A DNA stretch of 64,000 bases. It comes from Achromobacter sp. MYb9 (GTDB lineage Bacteria; Pseudomonadota; Gammaproteobacteria; Burkholderiales; Burkholderiaceae_B). Position numbers and translations under genes: made by a program. The stretch is from contig NZ_PCOQ01000001.1 of NCBI RefSeq assembly GCF_002975275.1, positions 124,001 through 188,000 of the forward strand, given 5' to 3'. Below the pieces are notes generated by a model that saw only the letters and a program-made list of their open reading frames with translations, ran no database searches and had not been told where the DNA came from. Every line of letters starts with the position of its first letter. Within the stretch, counting starts at the first letter, position 1. Shown piece after piece: positions 52,951 through 64,000 of the stretch.

Positions 52951-53340
52951 GGGGCCGATCCGGATTCGACGTGGGTCGCGAAACAACTCAGGGCATGCCG
53001 AGCACCAGTTCGCTCGTTAAACCACTGGAAACACTACAAACGCCAACGACGAGCGTTTCGCTCTCGCCGCTTAAGCGGTGAGCCGCTGCACTGATCTGTC
53101 CTTGGGTCAGGTGGAGGAAGGCAACTTCCTAGGGGGGTAACCCTCGAACCACAGCAGCGACATTCACAAGGAATCGGTCTGCGCTGGGGTCACACGGCTC
53201 AGATTTAAATTACGTGAATCGCTTTGGTCCGGCCTGTCGGTTGGCTAAGTCCAGAGTTAAAACTAAATAAATCGACTACGCATGTAGAACTGATTGCAGA
53301 GGGCTTGCGGACGGGGGTTCAATTCCCCCCGGCTCCACCA
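52951..53340 (+). ncRNA. ssrA: transfer-messenger RNA (tmRNA)
   Basis: The 390-nucleotide RNA starts GGGGCCGATCCGGATTCGAC and ends with GGGGGTTCAATTCCCCCCGG then CTCCACCA, the tRNA-like acceptor and T arm with encoded CCA. The tag reading frame at 53042-53074 spells ANDERFALAA followed by TAA, the tag of Bordetella and relatives. tmRNA rescues stalled ribosomes with SmpB. Single-piece architecture is clear from the continuous pairing of the two ends. Confidence 0.98.
53042..53074 (+). CDS. tmRNA proteolysis tag reading frame
   Basis: The eleven codons encode ANDERFALAA plus stop and lie at the usual place within ssrA. The tag sends stalled products to ClpXP and other proteases. Confidence 0.95.
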   Translation, partial: ANDERFALAA

Positions 53341-53444: not shown

Positions 53445-53789
53445 TTAGGGAAGCCTTGAGACGATAAATGCAACTTCGTTTTGATGGTTTGGATATCGGC
53501 CGTTCACGTGGGCGGCGAAATCCTGTCTGGTGATCCGGTGGTGATAAGCATCATGCAACCACACCAGGAACTGGTCTTCCTCGGCTTTCGTATCGATGGG
53601 GATGCGCTTGTAGTTTGGCTCCGCCTTGATCCGGTCCACCAAGTTGTTGAGCCACGCATTGAAGGGCTGGTCATCCACCGCTGCCGCAACGCGAGGGTCG
53701 GTATTTGTCGCGCAGCCCTGTATCGCGGGCATGGCCAGAACGCACGCTAGCACGACAGCGCGACCGAAATTTCTCGCTCTCATTTTCAT
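53445..53789 (-). CDS. small putative lipoprotein
   Basis: The 114-residue protein has a type II signal peptide with a lipobox-like IQGC (Cys about residue 26). The mature part, rich in charged residues and aromatic pairs (FLVWLHDAYHHRITRQDF), has no domain I know. The ATG at 53789 follows GGAGAAGTGAGC, and signal peptide plus good start argue that it is real. It is convergent with ssrA and divergent from the polysaccharide operon, so it might be an accessory part of that system or unrelated. Confidence 0.7.
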   Translation of the reverse strand: MKMRARNFGRAVVLACVLAMPAIQGCATNTDPRVAAAVDDQPFNAWLNNLVDRIKAEPNYKRIPIDTKAEEDQFLVWLHDAYHHRITRQDFAAHVNGRYPNHQNEVAFIVSRLP

Positions 53790-54117
53790 GCTCACTTCTC
53801 CTTCTCTGTCCGAACAGGAGCAATGAAGATACTTCGATAAGGGCGTGCGCAGCAAAAGGCCGGCATGCCGAATCCCGTTGGCTTCTGGTGCCCGGGTTTT
53901 TCTGAAACGCTTATCGAGAAAGCCCAAACAGGGCGAACCTCAGAAAGAAAAGTGCTACCGCCTGCTCGTGCCGTGGCGCGGGGACAACGGCCCGAACTTT
54001 TACCGAGTATGTCCCCAGCATTGGTTCGAGTCGAAATAATCCGTCACATATTACCAATACTTTCAATACATAATAAACGCAAGGAAATGCCACCACGTCT
54101 GTGAGGTCATTCTTGCG
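53790..54117. promoter_or_regulatory. region upstream of the exopolysaccharide operon
   Basis: No gene is supported in these 328 bases. The part at 54035-54085 is markedly AT-rich (ATATTACCAATACTTTCAAT, then ACATAATAAACG) and is the likely promoter region for wecB; I cannot assign -35 and -10 with confidence. There is no strong ribosome site directly before the wecB ATG. Confidence 0.45.
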
Positions 54118-55278
54118 ATGAAAGTCCTGTCCATATTCGGCACGCGTCCCGAAGCCATCAAGATGGCGCCACTTGTGACCGCGCTGCAGCAGGAGCGACG
54201 GATTCAAAGCGTGGTTTGCGTGACGGGCCAGCACCGGGAGATGCTGGATCAGGTCTTGGCGCTGTTCGACCTGCGCGCCCAGCACGACCTGGACATCATG
54301 ATCCCCAACCAGACCCTGAACGGACTATATGCGCGGTTGATCAGCCGGGTGGACAGCGTGCTGGAGGCCGAGCAACCCGATTGCGTCCTGGTGCATGGCG
54401 ACACCAGCACCGCCTCTGCCTGCGCCTTGGCGTCGTTCCACCGCCGTGTCCGTATTGGCCATGTCGAGGCCGGATTGCGCACGGGCAATCTGGCGATGCC
54501 CTTTCCCGAAGAAATGAATCGCCGCGTCGTCGATGCGGTCGGCGACTGGCTGTTCGCCCCCACGGCCGAGTCGCGCGGCAATCTGCTGCGCGAGAACCTG
54601 GCGGGCCACATTACCGTCACGGGCAACACGGTGATCGACGCGCTGGCGATGACGTGCGAAAAACTGGATCCGCAAGGTCCGCTGGCCCGCCAATTGGAGT
54701 CCCGCTACGACTGGCTGGATCCGTCCCGCCGGCTGCTGCTGGCGACCGGCCATCGGCGCGAGAGCTTTGGGGACGGTTTCAAGAATATCTGCGCGGCGCT
54801 GGCCGAACTGGCCCGACGCGACGACCTGCAGATCGTCTATCCCGTGCACCTGAACCCGCAAGTCCGCAATGTGGTGATGACGGAATTGGCTGGCCTGCCG
54901 CATGTGCACCTGATCGATCCGCTGGATTACCTGGACTTCGTCTGGTTCATGCAGCGGTCGTATCTGATCCTGACCGATTCCGGCGGAGTTCAGGAAGAAG
55001 CCCCTTACCTGGGCAAACCGGTGCTGGTGATGCGCGACGTGACCGAGCGCCCCGAGGCGGTGCAGGCGGGAACGGTGGCGCTGGTGGGCACCGACACACG
55101 GCGCATCGTGACCGAAGTGACCCGCCTGCTGGATGACCCTGGCCTGCATGCGTCTTTCTCGCGGCGCATCAACCCCTATGGAGACAGTCAAGCCAGCCAA
55201 CGCATCGTGGACGCCTTGTGCGGACGCGCCGTATCGGAATTCGACCCCTACGGAACTGCGTCCGCTGCTGGCGCCTGA
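54118..55278 (+). CDS. wecB: UDP-N-acetylglucosamine 2-epimerase (non-hydrolysing)
   Basis: The 386-residue enzyme begins MKVLSIFGTRPEAIKMAPLV and keeps VHGDTSTASACALA, GHVEAGLRTG, FPEEMNR and GHRRESFG, which hold the catalytic acids and His of WecB/MnaA. It converts UDP-GlcNAc to UDP-ManNAc in the cytoplasm. No wecC (dehydrogenase) follows, so ManNAc itself rather than ManNAcA is the probable building block. It leads the exopolysaccharide operon, 34 bases before the next gene. The E. coli NfrB pathway also depends on WecB. Confidence 0.94.
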   Translation: MKVLSIFGTRPEAIKMAPLVTALQQERRIQSVVCVTGQHREMLDQVLALFDLRAQHDLDIMIPNQTLNGLYARLISRVDSVLEAEQPDCVLVHGDTSTASACALASFHRRVRIGHVEAGLRTGNLAMPFPEEMNRRVVDAVGDWLFAPTAESRGNLLRENLAGHITVTGNTVIDALAMTCEKLDPQGPLARQLESRYDWLDPSRRLLLATGHRRESFGDGFKNICAALAELARRDDLQIVYPVHLNPQVRNVVMTELAGLPHVHLIDPLDYLDFVWFMQRSYLILTDSGGVQEEAPYLGKPVLVMRDVTERPEAVQAGTVALVGTDTRRIVTEVTRLLDDPGLHASFSRRINPYGDSQASQRIVDALCGRAVSEFDPYGTASAAGA

Positions 55279-55312
55279 CGCCCTTGCGACGTATTCCCAG
55301 CCCGGAGCCCCC

Positions 55313-57529
55313 ATGCCTTCCCCTAGCCTGATCACCCCCGCTATCCGAACGCTTTGCCGCGCCTTGATGGCCGCCGGCATGCTGTTTCCCGTGGCCGCGA
55401 CGGCCAGCCCCGCCGGCGACGCTTTGCGGCGCCTGCAAAGCGATGACTGGGTCACGCGGAGCACCACGCTGCAAGACCTGGGCATTACCGAGCCGGTCGT
55501 CCTGAGCAACAGCGACGCGCGTCATGACTTCTATCTTCCCGTGCCGCGCGGCGTGCCCATTTCCGATGCAACCCTGAACTTCGACGCGAGGTACACCAAG
55601 GGCGAGCCGGGGCGCACGAGCATGGTGCTATGGGTGGACGGTGAGCCGCAAACCGCACAGCGGATCGCCGACGGCGACGGGTCCCTGACGCGCAAGCTGG
55701 CCGTGGAACAGCGCAGCCGCCAGACCGGTTTCCTGCGGCTCGGCATCGATTGGCAATCGGAAATCGCACTGCGCAATTGCGAGAGCAATCGCGCGACGGC
55801 CAATGCGCTGACGATCTCGCCACAGACCGACCTGAGCTACCGCTACGACGCGTCCGCCATCAGCAATCTTGATGACGCTTGGCGCACCTTGCCCGGCAAA
55901 CCGGTATTGATGGTGCCCGGGGCCAAGGTAGACCCGCAGACGTTCGACAGCGCCTGGCGCATGGGCGTGGCGATGGAGCGCGCGGGCAAGCGCGTGGCGG
56001 TCAAGGCATTCCCGTCGGTGGGCGACGAGGTCGACACGCGGGGCCTGCAGGCGCCCGCCGGCCTGGGGCAGATCCCGGCGTTCGCCGCCGTGACGGACAA
56101 GGCGAAGCACAAGCTGGCCAGCCCCGCCGAAATTGGCGCCTTGCTCGTCCTGGGCGCCCCCGCCGTGAGCGGCGATGTGGTCATCGTCGATGCCTCGCTG
56201 CGCGCTCGCTACAACGCCGCGCTGGATGCGCTGCAAACGCAACTGGCCTCGGACGCCGACGCCGCCGACGCCTTCAAGGCGTGGCGCCAGCAGCGCATGC
56301 CGCTGGCCGGCGCGGACCTGCCCGCGAAGGATATCCGGCTGCTGTCGTTGGGGCGCCAAGCCGTGATCGCCGTGGCGGCCGATGCCGGTGCTCAAGGCGC
56401 AGGCGCTTTCGACGCGGCCTGGCGGCGCATCCTGGTGACGCGCCAGGTCAATGTGAAAACCGCCACGCCGCCCCAGACCTTCGCGGACGGCGGCCTGCGC
56501 CTGACGACCCTAGGCGGTTCAGCGGACAGTTTCGACGTGGTCGCGCGTGGCGACTGGAACGCAACCTTCCCGCTGGCGTCCGTATCCGCGGATGGCCGGA
56601 TGCCGGACGAACTGGTCCTGGATCTGGCTGCGGCGCCCGGGGCGTCCACGACACGTCCCGTGGCCTCGGTCTTCTGGAACGGCATTCTGCTGGCCGCCAA
56701 ACAGATGGACGCCGACGGCAGGCCCGAGCGCCTGATCGCTCGCGTTCCCGGCTATGCGCTGGGCGTCACCAATGCCGTGCGCGTCACGTTCCAGCGCCAG
56801 CCGGTATCGGTGGACTGCAACGAAATCCCCCAGGGCTATCCCGTGAACGTGCTGCCGACGAGCTACGTAAAACCGGGCAAGGCGCAGCCTGACGGCACCT
56901 TCGTGGGACTGCTGCCGCTGCTGGCCGGCAGCCCGCAACTGATCATCCCGGACGCCTACCTGGCCGATGCGCCCGACAACCTCAAGCGCGTGATCGGTAT
57001 CGCCTCCGCCAGCGGCGTGTCGGCGACGCGCGCCGAGCTGACGGTGACGCCCGCAGGCCAGGCCGTCAAGCCGGCACGGCCGTTCCTGGCGATGGAAGTC
57101 GCGGTGGAAGGAGCCAAGCCCATGGTCCAGGTGACCGACCGCAAGCAATTGAAGGTGGATGGCAAGGACGCGCCCTGGCTGGACATTTCCGGCCTGGACC
57201 ACATCAGCACCGCGGAGGTCGTCAGCGGCGGCGGCCAGGACGGCTTGCTGTGGCACACCCTGGGCGAGCGGCCGGGCATGCTGGATGCGCCCTTCGTGCT
57301 GAACCGCGGCAACGTCGTCATCATCGGCGCAACGGGACCGGTGGCCTGGATCGATAGCGGCAACCCCGACGCCAGCCACCCGCCGGGCGCAGGCGAAAGC
57401 GCCTTCTTCGAATGGCGCCGCTATATCTCGTGGAGCGTGCCCGCCATCAGCATCAGCATGCTGATACTGATCTTGATCCTGATCGTTGCCCTGCGCGTGA
57501 GCCGCAGGAAGCACAAGGAAAACAAGTAA
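55313..57529 (+). CDS. BcsB-like periplasmic subunit of a polysaccharide synthase
   Basis: The 738-residue protein has a signal peptide (to about residue 31), a large periplasmic part and one C-terminal membrane helix (ISMLILILILIVALRVSRRK), the plan of BcsB. The blocks FYLPVPRGVPISDATLNFDA and LRNCESNRATANALTISPQT resemble the BcsB repeats; a second copy of the pattern lies around DAYLADAP to VDCNEIPQ. BcsB escorts the nascent chain from the BcsA synthase. Here the partner would be the NfrB-like enzyme, 12 bases downstream. Similarity was judged by eye and is moderate; the ATG at 55313 follows CCCGGAGC. Confidence 0.68.
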   Translation: MPSPSLITPAIRTLCRALMAAGMLFPVAATASPAGDALRRLQSDDWVTRSTTLQDLGITEPVVLSNSDARHDFYLPVPRGVPISDATLNFDARYTKGEPGRTSMVLWVDGEPQTAQRIADGDGSLTRKLAVEQRSRQTGFLRLGIDWQSEIALRNCESNRATANALTISPQTDLSYRYDASAISNLDDAWRTLPGKPVLMVPGAKVDPQTFDSAWRMGVAMERAGKRVAVKAFPSVGDEVDTRGLQAPAGLGQIPAFAAVTDKAKHKLASPAEIGALLVLGAPAVSGDVVIVDASLRARYNAALDALQTQLASDADAADAFKAWRQQRMPLAGADLPAKDIRLLSLGRQAVIAVAADAGAQGAGAFDAAWRRILVTRQVNVKTATPPQTFADGGLRLTTLGGSADSFDVVARGDWNATFPLASVSADGRMPDELVLDLAAAPGASTTRPVASVFWNGILLAAKQMDADGRPERLIARVPGYALGVTNAVRVTFQRQPVSVDCNEIPQGYPVNVLPTSYVKPGKAQPDGTFVGLLPLLAGSPQLIIPDAYLADAPDNLKRVIGIASASGVSATRAELTVTPAGQAVKPARPFLAMEVAVEGAKPMVQVTDRKQLKVDGKDAPWLDISGLDHISTAEVVSGGGQDGLLWHTLGERPGMLDAPFVLNRGNVVIIGATGPVAWIDSGNPDASHPPGAGESAFFEWRRYISWSVPAISISMLILILILIVALRVSRRKHKENK

Positions 57530-57541
57530 CCCGGAAGCGCC

Positions 57542-59239
57542 ATGTCCTCGCTCTACTGGCCCTACCTCATCGCGGATTACTACCGCGGGCTGGAAGTCGT
57601 GACCGCCATCGTGGGCGTGGTCATCCTTCTGTCGAGCCTGGACGACCTGTTCATCGACGCCTGGTACTGGCTGCGCGAGCTGAGGCGTTCATTGACGGTC
57701 AAGCGCCGCTACACCCCGCTTTCGGCTGAACAGCTGCGCGCCAAGGAGGAACAGCCGCTGGCGATCATGGTGCCCGCGTGGCTGGAGTACGACGTGATCT
57801 CGTCGATGCTCGAGACCATGGTGTCGACGCTGGAATACAAGAACTACATGATCTTCGCCGGCACGTACCAGAACGACCAGCGGACGATCGACGAAGTGGA
57901 GCGCATGCGCCGGCGTTATCGGCAATTGATCCGGGTGGAAGTGCCCCACGACGGCCCCACCTGCAAGGCCGATTGCCTGAACTGGATCGTGCAGGCCATC
58001 TTCGCGCAGGACGAGAAGCAACCGGTGCCCTTCGCCGGCGTCATCCTGCATGACAGCGAGGACGTGCTGCACCCGCTGGAGCTCAAGTACTACAACTACC
58101 TGCTGCCGCGCATCGATTTCATCCAGCTGCCGGTGACGTCGCTGGAGCGCCATTGGTATGAGCTGGTCGCCGGCACCTACATGGATGAATTCGCGGAGTG
58201 GCACACCAAGGACCTGGTGGTGCGCGAAAGCCTGTCCAAGATGGTGCCGTCCGCCGGCGTGGGCACCTGCTTTTCGCGCCATGCGCTGGTGGAGCTTGCG
58301 GCTGAAACCAACAACCAGCCCTTCAACACGGACACGCTGACCGAAGACTATGACATCGGCGCGCGGCTGGCCCAGCGCGGCATGAAGCAGATCTTCGGCA
58401 AGTTCCGCGTGGAATACGTGACGCGGCGGCGCTCGTGGTTCGGGCTTGGGCCTGAAAAAATATCGACCATCAGAATGCCGCTGGGTGTGCGCGAATATTT
58501 TCCCAACACCTTTCGCACGGCGTATCGGCAGAAGGCGCGCTGGACGCTGGGGATCGGCCTGCAGGGCTGGCAGCAAGTGGGATGGACGGGATCACTGGCG
58601 ACCAGATACCTGCTGTTCCGCGACCGCAAGGGGCTGATCACGTCGTTCATTGCGATTCTGGCATATGTCCTGCTGGCCAACTTTTTCGTGTTTTTCCTGG
58701 CGGACAAGTTTGGCTGGTGGACGGTGTATTACCCCTCTTATTTCCGGCCCGGCGGGTGGCTGGTGACGCTGATGTGGATCAATGCGGTGGCCCTATTGCT
58801 GCGTGTGGTGCAGCGGGCGTACTTTGTGGGGCGCATGTATGGCTGGGAACACGCCATGCTGTCGATCCCCCGGATGATCGTCGGCAATTTCATCAATGCA
58901 ATGGCGGCGGCGCGGGCCTGGCGGCTGTTCATCATGCACCTGATCACCGGCAAGCGCCTGGCATGGGACAAGACCATGCACGACTTCCCAAGCACCGACC
59001 AACTGTCGCAGCAGCGCAAGCGGCTGGGCGAACTGCTGCTGTCCTGGCAGGCCATCGACCAGGACACGCTGTCACGCGCGCTTGAGATCCAGGCGCGCGA
59101 GAAAAAGCCACTGGGCAAGATTCTGATGGAGCAAGGCTGGCTGGACGAGCGCACGCTCAACGAGGCCATCGATTTCCAACAAGCGGGACAGGAGGCGCCG
59201 CCGCCCCCGCACGCCAAAGACAAACCCGCGACGACATGA
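57542..59239 (+). CDS. nfrB: NfrB-like membrane glycosyltransferase with c-di-GMP-binding MshEN domain
   Basis: The 565-residue protein is an inner-membrane GT2 enzyme: an N-terminal helix, HDSED at about 170-174, TEDYDIGARL near 266, QKARW at 330-334, and two or three membrane segments after 365. At the C-terminus two 24-residue motifs, RLGELLLSWQ...Q (494-517) and PLGKILMEQG...Q (523-546), are spaced by five residues, exactly the MshEN c-di-GMP-binding arrangement. E. coli NfrB has this layout and is needed for phage N4 infection and c-di-GMP-dependent glycan synthesis. The stop overlaps the nfrA ATG. Confidence 0.9.
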   Translation: MSSLYWPYLIADYYRGLEVVTAIVGVVILLSSLDDLFIDAWYWLRELRRSLTVKRRYTPLSAEQLRAKEEQPLAIMVPAWLEYDVISSMLETMVSTLEYKNYMIFAGTYQNDQRTIDEVERMRRRYRQLIRVEVPHDGPTCKADCLNWIVQAIFAQDEKQPVPFAGVILHDSEDVLHPLELKYYNYLLPRIDFIQLPVTSLERHWYELVAGTYMDEFAEWHTKDLVVRESLSKMVPSAGVGTCFSRHALVELAAETNNQPFNTDTLTEDYDIGARLAQRGMKQIFGKFRVEYVTRRRSWFGLGPEKISTIRMPLGVREYFPNTFRTAYRQKARWTLGIGLQGWQQVGWTGSLATRYLLFRDRKGLITSFIAILAYVLLANFFVFFLADKFGWWTVYYPSYFRPGGWLVTLMWINAVALLLRVVQRAYFVGRMYGWEHAMLSIPRMIVGNFINAMAAARAWRLFIMHLITGKRLAWDKTMHDFPSTDQLSQQRKRLGELLLSWQAIDQDTLSRALEIQAREKKPLGKILMEQGWLDERTLNEAIDFQQAGQEAPPPPHAKDKPATT

Positions 59240-61983
59240 CTCTGCTGACCCGTTCGCTCATCTTGTCCGCCGCGCTGGCATGCGTGTGGGCGGCCGCGCC
59301 CGCCTCCGCTCAAACCCCGGGCCAGACGCCGGCCAAGACGGAAGCGCCGCTGGAAGGCGCCGCCTGGCAGTTTGCCGATGAAGGCTACAAGAACTACGAC
59401 GCGGGCAAGTATGAACTTGCCCAGCGGCAGGCGGAATCCGCCATCGCCCTGCGTCCGGACGTGGAACGGCTGCGCTTGCTGCTGGTCTATTCGCTGCAAA
59501 AGCAGGGCAAGCTGAAAGAGGCCGATCAGGCCGCTGCCGATGCGATCAAGAACGGCCTGGACACCCCCGCCTTGCGGCAGGCCCGCGCCAACCTCCGGCC
59601 GCAGGCAGCGCCGCGCCCGGCGGGCGTTGCATCCGGCGGTTCGGCCACGACTTCCGCCTACCGCCGCGGCTTTCCCATCGCCACGCGCGCCTACGCCGAC
59701 TACAACCGTGCCGACTACCCGGCCGCCGCGCGCGGGGCCGAACAGGCGTTCCGCATCGATCCGAAGCAAGGCGCGTGGGCCATGCTGTGGTTGGACGCGC
59801 TGGAAGCCCAGGGCAAGTATGAAGAGGCCGACGCTGCCGCCGCCCAGGCGATTGCGCTGGGTGCACCCAACAAGAACGACTTGACCGCCCGCCAGCAGAC
59901 GATGAAGCGGCGCATGGCGATCAAGCCGGCCGAAGCGGGCTACCAGGCCCTGATCGCCAATCGGCCGGGCGACGCCGTGCCGCTGGCGCGTCAGGCCGTC
60001 GCGCTGGCGCCCGATACCGCCAGCCATCGCCTGCTGCTCATCAGCGCCCTGATGCTGGACAACCAGTTGCAGGCGGCCGAAGACGCCGCGACGGACGCGA
60101 TGAAGCAGGACGACGAAAACACCGTGGCGCTGGTCATGCGCGCGTATCTGCGCCAGCGCCAGGGCAAGACCGACCTGGCGGACGCGGACTTCGACGCCGC
60201 CCTCAAGCAGGATTGGCTGGACGACGACCAGCGCCGGAATATCCGCTTGATTGCGGCGGATGCGTCGCTGGCCGCCGGCGAGAACGCGCGCGCGCTAGCC
60301 TTGCTGCAGCCGCTGGGCGCCAAGGATGACGCGGCGGAGGCTCGCATCAAACGCGCACGCTCTCGGCCCGCGGTGCCTGCGACCCTGACGTTGGCCAACT
60401 ATCCTGCCCCGGTGCAGGATTGCCGCGACACGCCCTACGGCACATCGTGCGAACTGCTGCCTTCGGACGCCGCCGGCAGCGGCGGCCCTGCCTCGCTGGC
60501 TTACGCGGCGTATGCGCGCGAGGATTATCAGGAAGCCATTGCCCAAGCCCGCCAGGCGGTTGCGCAAGACCCCGCCAACAAAGAGTTCCAGCGCCTGCTG
60601 ACGACCACGCTGGCCGCCGGTAATCGCGCGCAATTGACGGAAGCCAACCAGCGCATGAGCGAGGCGCTGGCGGCCCAGCCCGACAATCCCACGCTGCTGA
60701 TGCAGCGCGGCTATTTGCACCAGCGCATGAAACAGCCGAAGCTGGCGCTCCAGGATTTCCAGGCGGCGCGCGCCACCGGCAAAGCGCCTCCGACCGTCAT
60801 CCTGGACGAGGGCTATGCGCTGTCGGGAGTGGGCGACAAACGCGGCGCGGTCGACAAACTGAAGGAAGCCATCGACGAAGCCGATGCCGGCAGGCTGGAA
60901 CTGACGCCGCAGCAGCGCTTCGACACCCGCAACGGCATCGCGGGGCTGGACCGCGAATGGGGCGGCTATTTTTCCGCCGGCTACCGGGGCGCACGGCCCG
61001 CCTCGGCAGGCCTGGGCGGCGCGGCGGTTACCGTGCCGGGCGACGCCGTATTCAGCACCGCCGAGATCTTCTGGCGGCCATCGGATTTTCTGAATTCGTC
61101 CACCCAGGTCTTCGAACTGTACGGCCGCCTATCCAACACGCTGTACGACAAGGGCGGCAAGACCACGAGCCAGACCGTGTCCGACCCGTGCGGCGGCAGC
61201 ATCGACGTCAACGAGACCAGCAATCAGGGGCTTGCCGGCATTCCCACGACGGTGGGCTCATTGGGGTTGCGCTTCACGCCGTCCACCGAGGTGGGGCTGA
61301 CATTCGGCCTGGAACGCCAGTTCAACCTGGGCACCGCGACCCGGCGCGGCACGTTCAGCCCGGATCCGTCGGCGTTGCGCTGCCAGCTCAACCAAGACAA
61401 CGAGACCGCCCACTACGAAACCAATGCCGGTAGCGGCGGCTGGCTCGCCTATGTGACTTACGGGCTGTATGAAGGCACGACGCTGCGCATCGACCGCCCC
61501 GACTGGTTCACGATGGAAGGCTACGTACAGGCGGGCTACTCCTGGCAGGACATGCCCGCGAAATTCTGGCTGCGCAACAACGCGACCGGCGTCGATGGCG
61601 AGAAATCATCGGGCAGGCTGAAGCGCGACCAGGCCTTTGGCGCGGGCGAGCTGCGCGTGGGGCGCAGCTACCGCATGGACGCCATCAGCGACCGTCTGGT
61701 GTTTTTTCCGTATGCCGTGATCGGCGCGGACTGGTTGTCGAACCGGAACCGTGTATCCGGCCTGGACATCAACGGCACCGATTCCTACAACCTGGTGGGC
61801 AACGGCTCGTCCTGGTCCCTGGGCGCCGGCCCCGGTTTCAACGTCCGCTACTGGTTCCGCGAAGACCATTACAACGCACCACGGTCCTATCTGGACTGGA
61901 CGACGCAATACCGCTTCAACATCGGCGGCGGCGCGGCCGACCGGGCCCGCGGCCTGTTCATCAACCTGACCCTGTCGTACTGA
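59236..61983 (+). CDS. nfrA: NfrA-like outer-membrane TPR protein (phage N4 adsorption protein A family)
   Basis: The 915-residue protein has a signal peptide cleaved after ASA near residue 26, many TPR units (residues about 35-550, e.g. EGYALSGVGDKRGAVDKLKE) and a C-terminal domain with AGYSWQDMPAKFWLRNNATG and FFPYAVIGADWLSNRNR, typical of the NfrA C-terminal family, ending in an aromatic residue as outer-membrane barrels do. In E. coli NfrA is the phage N4 receptor component and export partner of NfrB. It probably conducts the glycan through the outer membrane, like BcsC or AlgE/AlgK in other systems. Confidence 0.87.
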   Translation: MTLLTRSLILSAALACVWAAAPASAQTPGQTPAKTEAPLEGAAWQFADEGYKNYDAGKYELAQRQAESAIALRPDVERLRLLLVYSLQKQGKLKEADQAAADAIKNGLDTPALRQARANLRPQAAPRPAGVASGGSATTSAYRRGFPIATRAYADYNRADYPAAARGAEQAFRIDPKQGAWAMLWLDALEAQGKYEEADAAAAQAIALGAPNKNDLTARQQTMKRRMAIKPAEAGYQALIANRPGDAVPLARQAVALAPDTASHRLLLISALMLDNQLQAAEDAATDAMKQDDENTVALVMRAYLRQRQGKTDLADADFDAALKQDWLDDDQRRNIRLIAADASLAAGENARALALLQPLGAKDDAAEARIKRARSRPAVPATLTLANYPAPVQDCRDTPYGTSCELLPSDAAGSGGPASLAYAAYAREDYQEAIAQARQAVAQDPANKEFQRLLTTTLAAGNRAQLTEANQRMSEALAAQPDNPTLLMQRGYLHQRMKQPKLALQDFQAARATGKAPPTVILDEGYALSGVGDKRGAVDKLKEAIDEADAGRLELTPQQRFDTRNGIAGLDREWGGYFSAGYRGARPASAGLGGAAVTVPGDAVFSTAEIFWRPSDFLNSSTQVFELYGRLSNTLYDKGGKTTSQTVSDPCGGSIDVNETSNQGLAGIPTTVGSLGLRFTPSTEVGLTFGLERQFNLGTATRRGTFSPDPSALRCQLNQDNETAHYETNAGSGGWLAYVTYGLYEGTTLRIDRPDWFTMEGYVQAGYSWQDMPAKFWLRNNATGVDGEKSSGRLKRDQAFGAGELRVGRSYRMDAISDRLVFFPYAVIGADWLSNRNRVSGLDINGTDSYNLVGNGSSWSLGAGPGFNVRYWFREDHYNAPRSYLDWTTQYRFNIGGGAADRARGLFINLTLSY

Positions 61984-62021
61984 CGACGCGCCGACCCGCA
62001 ACGAACAAGGAGTCCGTCTTC

Positions 62022-63002
62022 ATGAAAACCCCTTTCCCCTTTTCCCGCCGGCTGGCGATTGGCCTGTCCGCCGCGCTGCTGGCCGTTGCCGCGTATGCGC
62101 AGGAAGGCTCGTCCCTCGTGATCCAGGGCAAGGACAACTGGCTGTTCCCCGGTTGGGGCAGCCTGACGCAGGTGGACATGCGCGGCATCGACGCCTCGAC
62201 CCAGCTGGTACGCGAAACCCGCGACGCCTTGGCCGCCAAGGGCATCCAGCTGGAAGTGCTGGTGCTGCCGGACAAGACACTGTTCTATCAGGACAAGCTG
62301 CCCGACGGGAAATCGCTGAGCGCCGACGTGAAGAAGCGCTATCAGACCATCCAGGACAAGCTGAAGCAGGCCGGCGTGTCGACCTTCGACGACGAAGCCG
62401 TACTGAAGCAAGTGAAGGACAGCGGCAAGGACGTCTTCTACCGCACCGACCAGCACTGGACGCAGGCCGCCGCCGACGCCACCGCCGAAGCGCTGGCGCA
62501 GCAGATCCAGCAAGACGTGAAGACGCTGGCCGGCAAGCCCGGCACCGGCATGCCGCTGGGCAGCGTGGTCAACGAGCGCCGCTATGGCGATCTGGCTGAA
62601 CTGTTCCTGACGCCCGACCAGCGCAAGCAGGCCGGCCGCGAGACCTACACCGTGCGCCGCCAGGCCGAAAACCAGAGCCTGCTGGACGACGCGCCGGCCC
62701 CCGTGCACGTGACCGGCCACAGCATGGTGCAGCCGTATTTCGGTTTTCCGCAGAAGCTGTCCAACGTGCTGGACCGCCCGGTCTCCGTCAATTGGAAGCC
62801 CGGCAACGTCGGCCAGTGGATCATGCTGCTGGAGTACCTGGAGTCGCCCGCGTTCAAGCAGAACAAGCCGCAGGTGCTGGTCTGGCAGATGTTCGAACCC
62901 ACCTATGCCCAAGGACCGGACGCCAAGGGCTTATGGGACAACGCGTCCATCATGGGCGCCGACACCTGGCGCAACCGCATGAAGGCCGCCATTGGCAAGT
63001 AG
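62022..63002 (+). CDS. AlgX/AlgJ-like SGNH-fold protein (putative O-acetyltransferase)
   Basis: The 326-residue protein has a signal peptide ending near residue 27 and the SGNH features of AlgX and AlgJ: the Asp-His pair in FYRTDQHWTQAAADATAEAL (about 139-158) and a nucleophile-Ser motif GHSMVQPYFG (Ser about 232). Alginate AlgX and AlgJ transfer acetyl groups to the polymer in the periplasm. No carbohydrate-binding C-terminal module is present. It lies 38 bases after nfrA and five bases before another protein of the same family; AAGGAG precedes the ATG. Confidence 0.82.
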   Translation: MKTPFPFSRRLAIGLSAALLAVAAYAQEGSSLVIQGKDNWLFPGWGSLTQVDMRGIDASTQLVRETRDALAAKGIQLEVLVLPDKTLFYQDKLPDGKSLSADVKKRYQTIQDKLKQAGVSTFDDEAVLKQVKDSGKDVFYRTDQHWTQAAADATAEALAQQIQQDVKTLAGKPGTGMPLGSVVNERRYGDLAELFLTPDQRKQAGRETYTVRRQAENQSLLDDAPAPVHVTGHSMVQPYFGFPQKLSNVLDRPVSVNWKPGNVGQWIMLLEYLESPAFKQNKPQVLVWQMFEPTYAQGPDAKGLWDNASIMGADTWRNRMKAAIGK

Positions 63003-63006
63003 CGCC

Positions 63007-64000
63007 GTGGAACCCTCTGACAAAGCCGCCGCGCCCAGCCACCGGCTGAGCGCCTGCGTGGTCGCGTTGCTGCTGGCGATGGGCTTGGGCTGGGGCGCCT
63101 GGTGCCTGGTCGACGCCAAGATCAGCCCGGCCGAGGTGTCGCCGTCCGCGTGGGCCGACGGATCGGCGGGCAGCGTGCTGAACAAGGCCATGCATATGCC
63201 CAGGCAGCCGGAAGTGGACACCTGGAACGCCTCGGTGCGCTACCGCGTGCTGGGCGACCTGGGCGATCAGGTCGCGATGGGCTGCCCGCAATGGCTGTTC
63301 TACCGCGACGGCTTGCGCCCGCAGCCAGGCGTCCACGTCTTCAATGAGCGCCTGCGCCTGATGCGGCACTGGGTGGATGAACTGCGCAAGAAGCAGGTAC
63401 AGGTGCTGGTCGTTGCCGTGCCGGATAAATCGCGTATTGAAGCTGACCGGCTCTGCGGCCTGCCGGTGTCGATGCCGATGCGCCAGACGCTGGATGCATG
63501 GCAGGATGCCCTGCGTGCGCAAGGCGTGCCTTTCGTGGACCTGCGCGACGCGTTACGCGCCGCGCCCGCCCCCCGCTTCTTCCGCACCGACGTGCACATG
63601 AACGCGCAGGGCGCGAAGGCCGCCGCGCAGCGTGTGGCCGAGGCGGCCTTGCCCCTGCTGCAAGGCCCCGGCACGCAAGCGTTCAAGACCGATGCGCCCA
63701 CGCCCGCCACGACGCGGATGGGCGACCTGATCGTGCTGGCAGGGCTGGAGCATGCGCGGCCGGGCTGGCGTCCCGAACTGGAAGTGGTATCGGAGCAGAG
63801 AATCGAACCGGTGCGCGCCGGCGGGCTGCTGGACGAGGCGCCGCCCGTGGAAGTACTGCTGGCAGGCACGTCCAACGGCCGCCGCAGCCAGTTCGCGGAA
63901 CGGCTGGGCATCGGCCTGGGCCGCGAAGTCTGGAACATGAGCCTGGACGGCGGGCAGTTCTCGGGAGCGTTGCAGATCGCGCTGAAGCAGCGCGATCAAT
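63007..64000 (+). CDS. AlgJ/AlgX-like membrane-anchored SGNH protein (3' end cut off)
   Basis: The frame starts with GTG at 63007, five bases after the preceding stop, and stays open to the edge (331 codons). It has an N-terminal membrane anchor (VVALLLAMGLGWGAWCL), an Asp-His motif in FFRTDVHMNAQGAKAAAQRV (about 192-211) and GTSNGRRSQFAERLG (about 285), the AlgJ pattern with the nucleophile Ser in a GTS motif. It probably works with the previous protein in acetylation; an MBOAT acetyl-CoA donor (AlgI type) is not seen and may lie to the right. Confidence 0.78.
   Translation, partial: MEPSDKAAAPSHRLSACVVALLLAMGLGWGAWCLVDAKISPAEVSPSAWADGSAGSVLNKAMHMPRQPEVDTWNASVRYRVLGDLGDQVAMGCPQWLFYRDGLRPQPGVHVFNERLRLMRHWVDELRKKQVQVLVVAVPDKSRIEADRLCGLPVSMPMRQTLDAWQDALRAQGVPFVDLRDALRAAPAPRFFRTDVHMNAQGAKAAAQRVAEAALPLLQGPGTQAFKTDAPTPATTRMGDLIVLAGLEHARPGWRPELEVVSEQRIEPVRAGGLLDEAPPVEVLLAGTSNGRRSQFAERLGIGLGREVWNMSLDGGQFSGALQIALKQRDQ

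Follow-up and report, generated by a model that had tools for sequence, protein, structure and literature searches.

Described Nfr systems and the Achromobacter operon

In the sections of the published work available to us, NfrB of Escherichia coli binds cyclic di-GMP (c-di-GMP), changes to residues of its binding motif reduced plating of phage N4 (PMC8669469), and NfrA together with the glycan forms the receptor of this phage (PMC8669472). The same sections describe larger clusters: nfrA, nfrB and wecB of Achromobacter xylosoxidans lie with a BcsB homologue and homologues of periplasmic O-acetyltransferases (Sellner et al. 2021, PMC8669472), and the nfr locus of Simplicispira suum includes an alginate-like acetyltransferase cluster (Junkermeier and Hengge 2021, PMC8669469). 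The available text of a further report states that MBOAT-SGNH pathways other than Dlt operate without a carrier protein; it reports acetylation of the tyrosine of an FLYFQF-type motif in PatA and names this residue as the shuttle in DltX of the Dlt pathway (PMC12148441).

We analyzed an operon of Achromobacter sp. MYb9 that begins in a 64,000-nucleotide stretch (hereafter, the window; C1:124001-188000 of the 6.68 Mb genome, a window position being the C1 position minus 124000) and encodes, in this order, WecB, a BcsB-like protein, NfrB, NfrA, two SGNH acyltransferases, an MBOAT, a carrier protein, an adenylation enzyme, an AlgF-like protein and an acyl-CoA dehydrogenase, after which an opposed ybcH follows. 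We are fairly confident that this locus is an Nfr-type exopolysaccharide operon that responds to c-di-GMP and includes an acylation cassette fed by a carrier protein. An earlier note on the window had listed six co-directional genes, which open reading frames (ORFs) and profiles confirm; the window end cuts the operon, and five further plus-strand genes extend it as far as C1:193275. That note also suggested that the combination of wecB, BcsB-like, nfrAB and acetyltransferase genes would be a distinct secreted polysaccharide system, a claim overtaken by a report in print since 2021 for A. xylosoxidans (PMC8669472, in its available part). The published cluster, as far as that part goes, comes with no mention of a carrier, adenylation enzyme, AlgF or dehydrogenase, and the sole locus labelled A. 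xylosoxidans in our set (L040) has no cassette. As far as we have checked, the new elements are the carrier module, its two exchangeable loaders, a derived pocket associated with a dehydrogenase, and a joint switch with NfrA; a literature search, with preprints and most subscription journals outside its scope, returned carrier-protein-fed exopolysaccharide acylation in no title among the matches listed.

The E. coli nfrBA-ybcH genes and wecB share with the Achromobacter operon an NfrB with a c-di-GMP motif (identical at 41% of 558 positions), NfrA, the DUF4434 gene and WecB. By analogy with this system, as presented in the available text of PMC8669469 and PMC8669472, the joining of the window genes into one secreted-polysaccharide pathway is supported. 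E. coli differs in its longer NfrB (745 versus 565 amino acids) and in the adjoining 12 kb, a stretch ending inside nfrA, where no BcsB-like gene or acylation cassette matched; as a control, its BcsB lies elsewhere in the genome.

A carrier protein and loader beside the acyltransferase

The cassette follows nfrA on the plus strand. The SGNH genes lie at 62022..63002 and 62992..64000, the second being cut by the window end; it starts at TTG 62992 or GTG 63007 and ends at C1:188101 (64101 in window numbering). They are followed by genes for the MBOAT (C1:188111-189691; PF03062, 75.5 bits), the carrier protein (C1:189717-189956; PP-binding PF00550, 36.4 bits, cut-off 20.8), the DltA-like adenylation enzyme (C1:189988-191457; AMP-binding PF00501, 171.6 bits), the AlgF-like protein (C1:191461-192135; AlgF PF11182, 46.1 bits, cut-off 34.4) and the dehydrogenase (C1:192145-193275; acyl-CoA dehydrogenase domain, 125.9 bits). 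The MBOAT ends in the acyl-shuttle motif FLYFQF, and the carrier and the DltA-like enzyme come directly after it. Both SGNH proteins match ALGX PF16822 (247 and 219.2 bits, cut-off 26.5) and neither matched DltD PF04914. The AlgX/AlgJ-like label of the earlier note thus holds at the family level, while both proteins are closer to AlgJ than to AlgX; the closest solved structure to the first is AlgJ 4o8v (79.8 bits), with the D-x-H and G-x-S stretches aligned. With alginate acetylation (AlgI, AlgJ, AlgX, AlgF) the operon shares an MBOAT with a fused shuttle tail, two SGNH proteins and AlgF, all over Pfam cut-offs. Unlike that system, it has two AlgJ-leaning SGNH proteins and encodes a carrier protein with its loader. 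As the MBOAT is accompanied by a carrier and a DltA-like enzyme of its own, acetate decoration is unlikely; the polymer probably bears a carrier-delivered aminoacyl-type group instead, and the alginate-type acetylation proposed earlier is probably wrong here.

We searched for NfrB relatives and kept the best 80 of 371 loci, a set in which distant NfrB loci are under-sampled. Profiles built from these same, related loci, which show linkage within the set but yield counts that are not independent, mapped NfrB in 80, BcsB in 79, NfrA in 78 and WecB in 74. The order wecB, bcsB, nfrB, nfrA occurs in 71 of the 80; among the other nine, six have no wecB match over threshold in front (one of them, L103, starts at a contig end), two break off ahead of nfrA and one is without bcsB. 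The genes are thus not randomly scattered in orthologous loci, and the cassette genes are linked as well. A long MBOAT is present in 56 of the 80 loci, two of which are cut by contig ends, and all 54 uncut loci encode a carrier and a loader. The loader is DltA-like in 48 loci and FkbH-like, with a different carrier, in six. In these six of the 80 the FkbH-like protein and carrier are encoded directly upstream of the MBOAT, and the FkbH-like protein of L046, the sole one scanned, passes TIGR01686 (309.5 bits, cut-off 146.65). FkbH glyceryl-carrier systems belong to polyketide pathways, with which these loci share the FkbH-like protein and carrier pair; here the pair stands before an MBOAT in an exopolysaccharide operon. 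The D-S site of the carrier, judged by eye, is kept in 55 of 55 proteins (49 and 6; L032 and L066 were omitted because of contig ends).

That one type of MBOAT occurs with either of two unrelated loaders is an argument for the carrier as the source of its acyl group. We consider quite unlikely the alternative of ordinary alginate-like O-acetylation, by which the MBOAT, the AlgJ/X proteins and AlgF would transfer acetyl from acetyl-CoA, with the carrier, adenylation enzyme and dehydrogenase unrelated to the process. The ALGX, MBOAT and AlgF families are all matched, as it would predict, and such genes are termed acetyltransferases in the available text of PMC8669469 and PMC8669472; against it stands the invariable company of a carrier and one of two loader types at uncut long-MBOAT loci. 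The set does occur without a detected carrier in two of the 80 loci (L097 and L103), although the L103 contig stops about 200 bases past the last cassette gene, which limits this result, and both loci have a different, shorter MBOAT of AlgI type (461 versus about 526 amino acids). Both short MBOATs likewise terminate in FLYFQF, as do 55 of the 57 long MBOATs from the window's operon and 56 loci, the exceptions being L032, which is cut, and L045. The L045 protein (550 amino acids) is the sole uncut long MBOAT without this end, owing to a frameshift or a real change.

The cassette lies between nfrA and ybcH, as in the window's operon, or starts with AlgF, or has its adenylation and carrier genes on the opposite strand. 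No MBOAT was found in 22 of the 80 loci, four of which (L084, L085, L091 and L102) do not extend past nfrA; L105, another of them, stops 2.7 kb beyond that gene. The nfr locus of Pseudomonas aegrilactucae (L070:14377-16068) has one SGNH gene and algF, with no match to an MBOAT, second SGNH protein or carrier. In wider draws, NfrB was present in 21 of the 200 genomes from the family (E 1e-60) and in 7 of the 369 from the class (E 1e-80), our own genome being included in both. Three of 17 additional loci (L151-L153) have the full cassette; in the remaining 14 no cassette gene matched except for a weak 47-bit dehydrogenase match in L143, and bcsB gave a clear match in four (L137, L143-L145) and a weak one of 36 bits in L142.

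Two classes of adenylation enzyme

Ten-residue pocket codes were read off an alignment, and on the same mapping E. coli EntF returned its known code. The window operon's enzyme reads DFFAVGSCSK. Among 48 enzymes, from the window's operon and 47 loci, 31 including ours have codes like this one (class I) and 17 have D[LV]Y[VT][LV]CTVAK (class II); L094 was omitted because a contig end cuts its A-domain, as were distant A-domain matches in L038, L039 and L056, which are not cassette genes. By eye, the pocket of Bacillus cereus DltA is DLMTLCTVAK on the alignment and that of the separate Dlt-operon enzyme of our own genome is DLYVLCTVAK. In our reading, the class I pocket of the window operon's enzyme differs from that of DltA at 8 of 10 positions, only D and K being common. 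Since the class II code is near that of DltA and the class I code is unlike it, class II enzymes probably load alanine and class I enzymes probably load something else. In a tree of adenylation enzymes, the class I sequences group as a single clade (support 0.904), nested within DltA-like enzymes that count the genome's own DltA among them; class II was not recovered as one clade, the node being weak (0.411).

Plain D-alanylation, in which a Gram-negative Dlt pathway would attach D-alanine at every adenylation-type locus, is likely for class II loci, where the pockets are almost equal to DltA's. As an account of all loci we judge it unlikely. Although the adenylation enzymes score highest on DltA models and group with the genome's own Dlt-operon enzyme, class I has its divergent pocket and its own clade, which tracks with the dehydrogenase, and a distinct Dlt operon is present elsewhere in the genome. 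The window operon shares with Dlt teichoic acid D-alanylation an adenylation enzyme and carrier that would feed an MBOAT and SGNH relay; it differs in having ALGX-type SGNH proteins instead of DltD, a shuttle tail that forms part of the MBOAT in place of DltX, an AlgF-like protein and, as a target, a presumed exopolysaccharide. The separate Dlt-type operon lies outside the window (G000:C21:95000-110000; L129:6967-11017, minus strand) and encodes DltD (PF04914, 198.2 bits), a short MBOAT (60.6 bits) and a DltA-like adenylation enzyme.

Of the 31 class I loci, 27 have the dehydrogenase; of the 17 class II loci, none does. Seven further class II flanks had none (0 of 7), and a comparison of 11 genomes gave no dehydrogenase within 100 kb of a class II cassette among the matches listed. 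We had considered the dehydrogenase a general part of the cassette and rejected this idea, as it was seen only with class I adenylation loci.

Known pyrrole pathways bring together an A-domain, a carrier and an acyl-CoA dehydrogenase, and our initial idea for this trio was a cassette that converts proline to a pyrrole-2-carboxyl group esterified to the polymer. The same three enzyme types stand together here, and all 19 dehydrogenases of at least 300 amino acids (27 were found in all) keep Glu240, the putative catalytic residue; the aligned long-chain acyl-CoA dehydrogenase chain 8w0z has Gln at this position. Profile and structure-sequence scores give the idea no preference, and we now regard it as highly improbable: the dehydrogenase reaches 206.3 bits on the prolyl-carrier-protein dehydrogenase family (cut-off 650) and is much nearer to long-chain acyl-CoA dehydrogenase (360.7 bits) than to prolyl-ACP dehydrogenase (165.1 bits), and the A-domain is closer to DltA, its best single-domain match among PDB sequences (235.4 bits), than to prolyl ligases (131.9 bits). 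In the PDB ranking for the A-domain, linear gramicidin synthase takes the top rows with a score added up over two A-domains (128.5 and 118.6 bits with the window operon's enzyme).

In a Simplicispira relative (L068), the carrier and a class II adenylation enzyme are encoded on the opposite strand, which may explain the carrier's absence from the available published discussion of the Simplicispira locus.

Co-variation of NfrA and the cassette

Nine Pandoraea loci, five of the adenylation type and four of the FkbH type, allow the two modules to be compared within one genus. Identities between types are similar to those within types for WecB (86%), BcsB (82%) and NfrB (89%), whereas NfrA (35%), the first and second SGNH proteins (44% and 49%), the MBOAT (60%) and AlgF (39%) all fall under their within-type ranges. 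Achromobacter loci with a cassette (10) and without one (6) are 88% identical in NfrB and 56% in NfrA, compared with 86% and 88% for NfrA within the groups; the NfrA identities come from 9 of the 10 and 5 of the 6 loci, as a length filter removed incomplete proteins (L029 NfrA gave no value and L032 was omitted). DNA identity drops at the nfrB/nfrA border, and the NfrB tail and NfrA vary within types too. We read these identities as suggesting that the exporter NfrA and the decoration cassette change together over a constant synthase. Achromobacter piechaudii L029 is an exception (L029:11680-15526): it has no cassette between nfrA and ybcH, yet its NfrA is of the cassette type (80% identical to the window's). 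Its nfrA reads as two overlapping ORFs, and the cassette has perhaps been lost recently.

We lean, by a little, towards a broader view in which Nfr exopolysaccharides are decorated by exchangeable carrier modules, DltA-like or FkbH, that switch with NfrA as one block over the constant synthase. Glyceryl esters would then come from FkbH modules, and DltA-like modules would give alanyl esters or, for the class of the window's operon with its derived pocket and dehydrogenase, aminoacyl esters of an unusual and perhaps dehydro kind. If module and NfrA do switch as one block, species would need a single step to alter the chemistry of a known phage-receptor glycan. Because phage N4 uses NfrA and the glycan as its receptor in E. 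coli, selection by phages might drive this switching, which we offer as speculation.

Exchangeable modules would break the stated rule that, among MBOAT-SGNH pathways, only Dlt uses a carrier protein, and the operon family looks exceptional in placing a fused-tail MBOAT, AlgJ-like SGNH proteins and AlgF beside a carrier with either of two unrelated loaders. Various beta-proteobacteria and some Pseudomonas would make aminoacyl or glyceryl exopolysaccharide esters that are invisible to an acetate assay, with effects on polymer charge and phage adsorption. The substrate question is directly testable with soluble proteins, namely the adenylation enzyme, the carrier and FkbH.

Synthase, c-di-GMP motif and putative chain escort

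The nfrB gene (57542..59239, plus strand) encodes a processive family-2 glycosyltransferase in its short form of 565 amino acids (PRK15489, 954.5 bits, cut-off 537). The c-di-GMP control claimed in the earlier note is borne out as regards the motif: residues 494-546 (59021..59179, plus strand) form a tandem 24-residue MshEN-type c-di-GMP-binding motif with a 5-residue spacer (NF053729, 54.1 bits, cut-off 38). In 81 aligned NfrB proteins (79 loci, the window and E. coli; one locus with a 1198-amino-acid reading was omitted), motif residues L495, G496, L499, L510, L524, G525, L539 and Q546 and the DxxD, TED and QxxRW glycosyltransferase residues are all invariant (81 of 81). By analogy with E. 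coli NfrB, we infer that the window's NfrB is under c-di-GMP control. Two NfrB lengths occur among the 80 loci: 559-577 amino acids in 61 and 703-770 in 18 (L085, L087-L094, L096-L101 and L103-L105), with the 1198-amino-acid reading in one; E. coli (L106) also has the long form. The long C-termini, inspected by eye in four loci and E. coli, have additional MshEN-like repeats.

The BcsB-like protein, a periplasmic chain escort by family with a C-terminal membrane helix, is encoded at 55313..57529 (plus strand). Its ORF is open from 55133, and 55313 is the likelier start, being downstream of the wecB end and having a signal-peptide-like stretch there, as judged by eye. BcsB PF03170 gave 27.8 bits (cut-off 21) while covering only 138 of 606 positions, and a search of the PDB sequences at E 10 with a profile of 41 BcsB-like relatives gave no BcsB chain. 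The call by sequence was therefore dropped in favour of the fold, and the protein was folded from an alignment that left out 39 of 79 BcsB relatives. The predicted structure has a BcsB fold across the periplasmic part, which settles the weak sequence call at the level of a model. The family calls made earlier (WecB, BcsB-like, NfrB, NfrA, SGNH) are thus upheld by profiles over cut-off, that of BcsB being convincing only with the predicted fold.

Proposed pathway

From the genes, motifs, predicted fold and linked inheritance we infer the following steps, sugar and acyl group included. On the model of the homologous Nfr and Bcs systems of E. coli, WecB would make UDP-N-acetylmannosamine (UDP-ManNAc), its expected product, which NfrB, activated by c-di-GMP through its C-terminal tandem motif, would polymerise through the inner membrane; the BcsB-like protein would escort the chain in the periplasm and NfrA would export the polymer. 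In the cytoplasm, the DltA-like enzyme would adenylate an amino acid and load it onto the carrier protein, where the acyl-CoA dehydrogenase may desaturate it. The MBOAT would then transfer the group onto a tyrosine of its own, that of the FLYFQF tail at its C-terminus, and the pair of AlgJ/X-type SGNH proteins would, together with AlgF, hand it on to the polymer.

Several points, besides the non-independence of the locus counts, weigh against the reading of the locus as a c-di-GMP-responsive operon with a carrier-fed cassette. NfrB does not pass NF008411, a model named for c-di-GMP-activated NfrB (577.7 bits over 538 residues, cut-off 1170), and a Pfam scan of NfrB at E 0.1 reported no MshEN domain. 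The A-domain falls under the cut-off of the DltA equivalog model (315.6 versus 559.85 bits), although this cut-off is strict, since the genome's own Dlt-operon enzyme fails it too (389.2 bits). We know of no amino acid predicted by the class I code. The dehydrogenase is missing from 4 of the 31 class I loci, and its nearness to long-chain acyl-CoA dehydrogenase makes its role uncertain. The MBOAT could still use acetyl-CoA, with the carrier serving another job. That the polymer of E. coli NfrB is ManNAc-based is itself only a proposal (PMC8669472).

Other operon genes and flanking regions

The operon opens with wecB (54118..55278, plus strand), a non-hydrolysing UDP-N-acetylglucosamine 2-epimerase gene (TIGR00236, 462.5 bits, cut-off 210.15; PF02350, 384 bits). 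The nfrA gene (59236..61983, plus strand) adjoins nfrB with a 4-base overlap and encodes a TPR and outer-membrane barrel exporter, the barrel being assigned by homology (PF13283 NfrA_C, 98.8 bits, cut-off 25, with TPR families). With the chosen starts, intergenic gaps in the operon are at most 38 bases. The nearest named relatives of the window's NfrB are from Achromobacter (97-98% identity). On the minus strand, the convergent ybcH lies at about C1:193283-194266, its start being approximate (DUF4434 PF14488, 194.5 bits); we take YbcH to be the DUF4434 family. Just upstream of the operon lie a tmRNA gene (52951-53340) and, after it, a short ORF on the reverse strand (53445-53927) for which no Pfam family scored above cut-off. 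The downstream neighbours (L003:12202-17864) are genes for a DUF1854 protein, an ABC transporter protein and a cyanophycin-synthetase-like protein.

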